A stretch of DNA of 64,000 nucleotides from the NCBI GenBank assembly GCA_944327225.1, contig CALVGZ010000002.1:84579-148578 (forward strand), in the 5' to 3' direction. The position numbers were made by a program, and so were the translations under genes. The notes beneath the pieces were generated by a model that made no database searches, was not told where the DNA came from, and saw only the letters and a program-made list of their open reading frames with translations. Shown here piece by piece: positions 31,064-56,996 of the stretch; positions within the stretch are counted from its first letter, which is position 1; every line of letters begins with the position of its first letter. Origin of the DNA: Candidatus Gastranaerophilales bacterium. Lineage in GTDB: Bacteria; Cyanobacteriota; Vampirovibrionia; Gastranaerophilales; Gastranaerophilaceae.

Positions 31064-32735
<1,672 letters not shown>

Positions 32736-32737
<2 letters not shown>

Positions 32738-32764
32738 AACCGTAGCGCGACTGCGCTAGGTTTT
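32736..32764 (+). terminator. hairpin directly after groEL
   Basis: 'aaaacc' and 'tagcgc' (32736-32748, one bulged G) pair with 'gcgcta' and 'ggtttt' (32753-32764); loop 'gact'. It begins on the stop codon. It may be the first groEL terminator or the edge of the GC-rich element that follows. Confidence 0.6.
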
Positions 32765-32885
32765 ACGAATGACCCTATGGTGTGCGAGCTCGTGACGGCA
32801 GAGCGTTGAGCTCTGGCGAACAGAGCGAAACCGTACCTAAGCGACATTTCAAATTCTTGCCGTAGGCGAATTTGACAGGAGCAAA
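32765..32885 (+). repeat. GC-rich structured repeat element, copy A (intergenic)
   Basis: Much richer in GC than its surroundings. The core 32781-32836 matches, in blocks, the minus strand of 56677-56734 inside rseP: 'tgtgcga', 'cgtgacgg', 'agcgttgagct', 'gcgaacag', 'gaa', 'ccgtac'. It contains the hairpin 'cagagc'-'gttga'-'gctctg' (32799-32815), enclosed by a possible 'acgg'/'ccgt' outer stem. A further hairpin 'aaattc...gcc-gta-ggc-gaattt' follows at about 32850-32872. No coding frame is supported. Confidence 0.8.
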
Positions 32886-32913
32886 GTCAATAATCCAAGA
32901 CAACACAAATTAT

Positions 32914-55469: not shown

Positions 55470-56996
55470 TTATAACTTTTTCGTAATAAGAGCAAAAATG
55501 TCGTTATAACAAATGCTTATCATTAGTATTATTAATAGGATAAAGAAAAAGTTATTAATTTTTTCACTAAATTCTCTGTCGGGTTTTTTGCCTGTAAATT
55601 TTTCGATTAATAAAAACATAACATGACCGCCATCCAATGCCGGTATTGGAAGGAAATTCATAATTGCTAAATTAATGCTAATCATTGCTGTTAAAAGAAT
55701 TCCGTTTAACATTCCTTTTGAGGCTATTATATCTCCTCCTACTTTAACAACTGCTATAACTCCATGCATATCTGAAGCTGAGACTTTACCTGTAATTAAT
55801 TGCCATAAGCTATATAGCATTGTAGTTGTAGTTGTGTATAGATAATCTATTGATTTTATTATTATTTGTTTTGGTGTTTTTGTTTCTGTATAAACATCTT
55901 CTATTTTTAACATTACACCTAGCATACCTTCATTATTAACTATGATATTTTTATATGTTATTTCTTGATTATTTCTTAAAATAGTTATGTTTAGCGGTTT
56001 ATATGTGTCTGAAAGTGCTATTGCAACGTCATTTAGATTTGTTGCGGTTTTTAATTTATATGTTTTTTTGCCGTATAGTTCATTTCTCAGTTCAATTTGG
56101 TTTTTGGTCAATTCAATTCCTTCTTTTTTATATTTTTCAAGACCTTTTAGGACGTTTTGATTTACTTTTAGGGGGTTTTCAGCTTCGGGCGAAGGTAGTT
56201 TTATTAAAGTGTTTGTGTTTATTTCTTCTTTTATATTTGGATTTAGCCTTTTCAATTCTTCAAGATTTTTTTCAATTAGGTCTTTTTCAGCGTAATCATC
56301 AAAAAGTTTTGAATTTTTTGCAAAAAAGGTGAGTTGATATAGAGTGTTTATTTGTTCGTCATTTATTTTAAGAAATTTATCACCTTTTGCGATTCCCGAG
56401 TTTTTAATATTAGAAGTTGTTTTGTTTGAAAAATTATCAACATATATATTTTGTGTTGAGGCAGGAAGCTTATGATAATATGTTGCAGCAAACATAACAA
56501 GCACTATTGCAAAAACTATATTCATAATGACACCTGCTGAAACTATTATCAGTTTTTGCATTATGGTTTTATTTTCGTATAATTCCGGTGAGTCTGCGGG
56601 TAAAGTTTCCAAATCTTCTTCATCTTCTGCCCTCGAGCCGTTCGCTTCGCTGTCGCTTGCTCCTTGGCTCTCGGGAGTACGGTCTTCGGGCTGTTCGCTG
56701 AAGCTCAACGCTTCACCGTCACGCCCTTCGCACACTTCTGCCCTCGAGCCGTTCGCTTCGCTGTCGCTTGCTCCTTGGCTCTCGGGTTCTGCAAATGAGA
56801 CGTACCCGCCAAATAAAAATGCGTGCAAGTAAAATACCGTATCACCCCATTTAAAAAGTTTCCAAGATGGACCAACAGGCATGCCTATTCCAAAACGTGT
56901 AACTCTTACATTGAAAATTCTTGCAGCAATAAAATGCCCGACCTCATGCACAAGAACAAGCAAGCTTATTAGTATAATCATTATTAATTGGTTCAT
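55470..56996 (-). CDS. rseP: RseP-type site-2 protease (M50) with in-frame GC-rich insert
   Basis: 508 aa, intramembrane zinc protease. First helix carries 'HEVGH' (17-21); the third metal ligand is in 'NFLPIPALDGGHVM' near the C-terminus; a PDZ-like region lies between. Residues about 71-124, in the cytoplasmic loop between 'FGGYVSFAE' and the second helix, are foreign-looking: two copies of 'PESQGASDSEANGSRAE' around a Glu-rich spacer, encoded by GC-rich DNA (56624-56786). The frame stays open and the catalytic motifs are intact, so the enzyme is probably active. 'aaaggagc' precedes the ATG; the coiled-coil gene lies 16 nt upstream. Confidence 0.92.
   Translation of the reverse strand: MNQLIMIILISLLVLVHEVGHFIAARIFNVRVTRFGIGMPVGPSWKLFKWGDTVFYLHAFLFGGYVSFAEPESQGASDSEANGSRAEVCEGRDGEALSFSEQPEDRTPESQGASDSEANGSRAEDEEDLETLPADSPELYENKTIMQKLIIVSAGVIMNIVFAIVLVMFAATYYHKLPASTQNIYVDNFSNKTTSNIKNSGIAKGDKFLKINDEQINTLYQLTFFAKNSKLFDDYAEKDLIEKNLEELKRLNPNIKEEINTNTLIKLPSPEAENPLKVNQNVLKGLEKYKKEGIELTKNQIELRNELYGKKTYKLKTATNLNDVAIALSDTYKPLNITILRNNQEITYKNIIVNNEGMLGVMLKIEDVYTETKTPKQIIIKSIDYLYTTTTTMLYSLWQLITGKVSASDMHGVIAVVKVGGDIIASKGMLNGILLTAMISINLAIMNFLPIPALDGGHVMFLLIEKFTGKKPDREFSEKINNFFFILLIILMISICYNDIFALITKKL
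56624..56786 (-). repeat. GC-rich structured repeat element, copy B (inside rseP)
   Basis: Two exact 52-bp direct repeats (56624-56675 and 56735-56786, period 111 bp = 37 codons) flank a 59-nt core. Core 56677-56734, read on the minus strand, matches copy A at 32781-32836. It contains the hairpin 'tgaagc'/'gcttca' (56699-56715). Each 52-bp repeat has imperfectly complementary ends ('ccctcgagcc' / 'ggctctcggg'). Confidence 0.88.

Follow-up and report, generated by a model that had tools for sequence, protein, structure and literature searches.

Palindromic repeats that invade genes without breaking the reading frame have been described above all for Rickettsiales. A genome of the Gastranaerophilales, uncultured bacteria of the gut, designated G000, contains a GC-rich repeat inside an intact protease gene, which raises the question of whether this segment is a DNA element that landed in the gene or an old part of the protein. 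The gene lies in a 64-kb stretch of one contig, called the window here, and was compared with orthologues and repeat copies from related genomes.

The rseP insert and its relatives

The gene at 55470–56996 (minus strand) is an intact open reading frame encoding an RseP-type site-2 metalloprotease of 508 amino acids, and its product matches Peptidase_M50 (PF02163) with an E value of 6.6e-52. As originally predicted, the catalytic motifs are intact (HEVGH at residues 17–21 and PALDGGH at 452–458), two exact 52-bp repeats occupy 56624–56675 and 56735–56786 with a start-to-start distance of 111 bp, and the repeat region reads through in frame as residues 71–124, PESQGASDSEANGSRAEVCEGRDGEALSFSEQPEDRTPESQGASDSEANGSRAE, adding about 54 amino acids. 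An exact 52-mer repeat has a negligible chance expectation within 64 kb. The GC richness claimed for the repeat was also observed, at 57% over 56601–56800 versus approximately 30% across the window.

On the coding strand the insert has the layout H1-H2-H1, in which the 52-bp repeats hold the hairpin module H1 and the spacer between them is a different hairpin, H2. The 5' copy of H1 (56737–56786, minus strand; 50 nt, CCCGAGAGCC...GGCTCGAGGGCAGA) is part of the 52-bp repeat and is identical to the 3' copy (56626–56675, minus strand). The H2 module (56676–56736, minus strand; 61 nt, AGTGTGCGAAG-stem-CGAAGACCGTACT) scores 85.2 bits with the H2 covariance model, R1. An early reading, that H1-H2-H1 is always a plain target duplication, was dropped, as H1 is a module of the family and in the rseP gene of G013 a partial H2 continues after the second H1.

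A search of 58 relatives recovered RseP in 56, and the protein alignment comprised 28 same-genus sequences. Only four of these carry the insert: G000 itself, G013 with a nearly identical insert, G001 with a linker of 132 residues, and G023 with a different subtype in a linker of 107 residues. In the remaining 24, the linkers are 14–46 residues long (median 25) and rich in E, D, K and N. Comparison of the DNA of filled and empty sites placed the start of the filled sites at the same codon. An insert present in all close orthologues had been named in the original prediction as the outcome that would speak against an insertion. Because 24 of the 28 same-genus orthologues are free of it, the comparison confirmed, at the level of sequence, the predicted in-frame insertion of a palindromic repeat, here a dispersed one, and the protein-domain reading was ruled out by this distribution.

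All four carriers fall in one six-species clade of the RseP tree (support 100/99), which also contains two empty sites, in G003 and G020. The tree requires three changes, so that one gain followed by two losses and several separate insertions would both be compatible with it. Outside this clade, the linker of G005 begins with CCCGAGAGTCAAGTAGT, which by eye resembles a decayed H1.

The AlphaFold model of RseP, built from a 28-sequence alignment, has a mean pLDDT of 76.6, with values below 50 exactly over residues 74–125, between beta strands at 32–68 and a helix at 145–174. The insert had been placed in the loop after the HExxH helix; the model agrees and predicts that this loop is disordered. 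We take the loop to be cytosolic by analogy with E. coli RseP, whose topology is established. The suggestion that the insert is "tolerated or even used" is plausible in its first half, given the predicted disordered loop and the intact motifs, and found no support in its second. We infer that the insert peptide is made and is tolerated rather than useful.

The inserts of G000 and G013 show 2 differences over 161 sites, compared with 218 over 1368 in the remaining gene (Fisher p 3e-9). An element occupying an orthologous intergenic site is 97–98% identical over most of its length, and its flank 77–95%. Since this intergenic copy is equally conserved, the conservation of the insert is at the DNA level, and its slow divergence belongs to the DNA element, through gene conversion, recent spread or structural constraint, and not to the RseP peptide. 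An old RseP domain maintained for its amino-acid sequence would account for the preserved frame and for the near identity of the G000 and G013 inserts, but such a domain is very improbable in view of the orthologues without it, the conserved intergenic copy, the predicted disorder, and the identity of the insert as a DNA repeat found mostly between genes.

A dispersed family of paired hairpins

Repeat copies resolve into H1 (50–59 nt, CCCGA...TCGAGGGCAAA) followed by H2 (57–61 nt, with consensus ends GGTGTGYGAAG...CGNAGNCCGTACC). The resulting H1-H2 unit of about 108–120 bp is often tandem, and a third hairpin (GCGACGT...CAGGAGCA) or further H1-H2 units often come after H2. Further GC-rich palindromic families are nested with the repeat at four loci (L002, L022, L026 and L147), namely a GCGACGT-hairpin-CAGGAGCA family and one with the ends GCGATAACGAGC...GTTAAGCACTACG.

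The H2 stem comprises 18 pairs, with 97.1% of cells paired and 10 pairs changed on both sides. Cells with changes on both sides numbered 52, versus 13.6 in shuffles (0/500), and sliding the alignment by 1–3 columns reduced pairing to 29–49%. For H1, with G-A allowed at positions 4–5, all 8 outer positions were paired in 44 of 127 copies (35%), representing 24 different arm pairs, versus 5.6% fully paired when the arms were dealt anew among copies. This stricter test replaced a first, lax one, which was discarded for a control rate of 48%.

A BLAST search with the insert gave 8 matches in G000 and matches in 16 of 39 relatives, all of the same genus. The covariance model detected H2 in 24 of the 26 same-genus genomes searched first and, with the later addition of G041 and G042, in 26 of 28; the two genomes with zero copies by the model are G009 and G022. 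Copies per same-genus genome range from 0 to 45, with 7 in G000 and high numbers in genomes including G020, G040 and G017; these counts derive from BLAST and model searches and not from full genome scans. G044, which represents a different genus of the same family, has 7 copies, and G034 gave a single weak match; six other genera of the family yielded no H2 by the model (1 of 7 other genera positive). The model was seeded with BLAST matches to the rseP insert, so divergent subtypes are undercounted, and its E values are rough. Among the genomes searched, the repeat was found only in Gastranaerophilales. No Rfam family matched it over the cut-off and a literature search returned no description of such repeats in Gastranaerophilales or Melainabacteria; it is apparently an undescribed dispersed family.

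In total, 178 H2 matches were located in 96 loci. Most copies are intergenic, and many lie at the 5' ends of tRNA genes. The second H2 copy in the window (32779–32837, plus strand; R1, 70 bits) is in an intergenic block just downstream of groEL. This multi-hairpin block spans 32728–32893, directly after the groEL stop codon, and in G023 (L014) the same groEL-side place is occupied, with a 58-bp duplication that includes the groEL end. In several species, copies stand beside GTCGGCTGATAATTGCG (L003, L020, L025, L035 and L140), apparently on the 5' side of rnpB, an identification made by eye on the subsequent sequence in L020.

Among approximately 105 distinct units sampled, the only convincing coding copies are those in rseP and in one prepilin. 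The latter, in G017 (L153, approximately 1120–1330), is an antisense H1-H2-H3 in frame in a prepilin-like leader, flanked by the initial residues MKKNSKVLS and the cleavage motif GFSLVEILVAL; the leaders of three related prepilins are short. The 105 distinct H1-H2 units have 56% GC. Their sense frames are open in 17, 15 and 6% of units, versus 18% for shuffles, and their antisense frames in 45–57%. Since the sense frames are no more open than expected by chance, the family is not made for translation in the orientation used by rseP, and the rseP copies are a stop-free subset. Tandem periods in rseP are 111 bp (G000 and G013) and 114 bp (G023), whereas spacings elsewhere, including 109, 110, 113, 115, 116 and 145 bp, show no regard to three.

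Two other explanations bear on these data. A structured RNA with a function, such as control from within mRNA or tRNA leaders, that owes its spread, also into rseP, to its usefulness would fit the strong covariation with conserved G-U pairs and the copies beside tRNA genes, rnpB and groEL. We consider it unlikely, since copy number swings from none to dozens among same-genus species, Rfam is silent, and hairpin-templated mutation or gene conversion may also keep stems paired. An assembly or binning artefact could be suspected because the related records are metagenome assemblies in which repeats stand at many contig ends and short-read assembly may have collapsed tandem arrays. It is hardly credible for the insert itself, as the same rseP site is filled in four separately assembled species by different but in-frame sequences.

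Target duplications and candidate routes of movement

No host-sequence duplication is visible in rseP itself to show how that insertion took place. Elsewhere, direct duplications of 20–112 bp flank 21 of the 86 clusters with enough flank, counted as AT-rich direct duplications scoring at least 18, versus 0 of 2725 random positions; the random positions were all drawn from the 64-kb window, and repeat modules themselves make up several of the 21 duplications.

The clearest structure is at L131 of G020 (1085–1329), where a perfect 62-bp duplication abuts a 121-bp H1-H2 on both sides and its second copy extends 10 nt into a tRNA-Leu(tag) gene that remains intact. At the orthologous site, G000 and G001 carry H1-H2, G003 and G007 have no insertion, and G013 carries a different repeat that is accompanied by a 33-bp duplication of its own. 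Starts of tRNA-Pro, -Met and -Thr genes show a similar pattern at other loci, and the duplications repeatedly cover the upstream region together with the first 9–16 nt of the tRNA gene. This recurrent position hints at a specific nick, on a small sample. The long and variable duplications are compatible with staggered nicks that are filled in, or with template switching in repair, with or without a specific enzyme.

Candidate enzymes were sought in the genomes. A repeat of REP/BIME type mobilized by RAYT (the REP-associated tyrosine transposase, Y1_Tnp) would explain palindromic, dispersed, mostly intergenic GC-rich hairpins in tandem arrangement. This reading is improbable, since Y1_Tnp (PF01797) is absent from G000 and present in only 1 of 19 same-genus genomes searched, and since the unit consists of two different hairpins totalling 108–120 bp with long target duplications. 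Genes for RVT_1 and DDE_Tnp_1 are likewise absent from G000; RVT_1 occurs in 8 of 18 same-genus genomes searched, a set that excluded the high-copy G020 and G040. With no consistent presence in the genus, RAYT, RVT_1 and DDE_Tnp_1 were rejected as drivers. There were no phage, plasmid or viral-contig matches, the viral pattern being one exact subtype and thus a weak test.

Taken together, the insert is very probably one copy of a mobile but non-autonomous Gastranaerophilales repeat that forms hairpins, a copy that landed within the gene, in the RseP linker, and survived as an in-frame floppy peptide. The repeat would spread by copying into nicked or stalled DNA, through staggered nicks with fill-in or through template switching, either of which would leave the long duplications; a trans-acting enzyme may be involved in this movement. 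In the ancestor of the six-species clade holding G000, or within that clade, a copy would have inserted into the linker, acidic and unstructured, that joins the beta-sheet following the HExxH helix to the next membrane helix. It probably survived as one of the repeats free of stops in the frame concerned, with a tandem period divisible by three (111 or 114 bp), which keeps RseP open and lengthens only a floppy peptide. Gene conversion or structural constraint may then keep the copies alike.

Relation to known repeats and significance

The original prediction likened the insert to Rickettsia palindromic elements. The likeness holds for the outcome, in that these elements and their Wolbachia counterparts are dispersed palindromic repeats of approximately 100–150 bp that sit in frame in genes without destroying them; here the H1-H2 unit measures 108–120 bp, has 7 copies in G000 by the model, and left the gene intact. 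Kinship beyond this analogy is not supported: the present repeat belongs to a different phylum, being found in Gastranaerophilales only, is overwhelmingly intergenic with no sense coding bias, and is a two-hairpin unit with long target duplications. Its coding copies are rare, and the large in-frame share in protein genes that marks the Rickettsia elements is reduced to rseP and one prepilin among about 105 units. It is provisionally filed as a separate repeat family with a similar effect in this one gene.

Other known systems share some of these features. REP/BIME sequences with RAYT are also extragenic palindromes, many per genome and in mosaic arrangement, but the present unit is longer and bipartite, and G000 has no RAYT. 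Pneumococcal BOX, ERIC and other MITE-like repeats are modular, non-autonomous hairpin repeats with occasional in-frame fusions (PMC10969869); unlike classical MITEs, with terminal inverted repeats and a short target duplication of fixed length, the present family shows no one terminal inverted repeat that covers the whole unit, and its duplications are long and variable (20–112 bp). PARCELs, 25-residue amphipathic repeats often found in membrane proteins (PMC2996958), are likewise palindromic in DNA, tandem and protein-coding, whereas the present repeat is mostly non-coding and hydrophilic when coding.

A bolder proposal, which we put forward tentatively and regard as rather less probable than its opposite, is that this lineage of non-photosynthetic cyanobacteria harbours, in the repeat, a new class of mobile element that is structured and non-autonomous. 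Such an element would insert about 10 nt inside tRNA genes as well as elsewhere, duplicating tens of target bases and thereby rebuilding the tRNA gene together with the region upstream of it, and would occasionally donate an in-frame peptide to proteins.

The rseP case extends the outcome known from Rickettsia palindromic elements to a phylum far removed from Rickettsiales, in which closely related species show both occupied and unoccupied sites. It gives a rough base rate for this outcome, which is rare, and a clear reason for tolerance in the disordered linker. The clean insertions with unusually long duplications at tRNA starts make the repeat's mode of movement testable.
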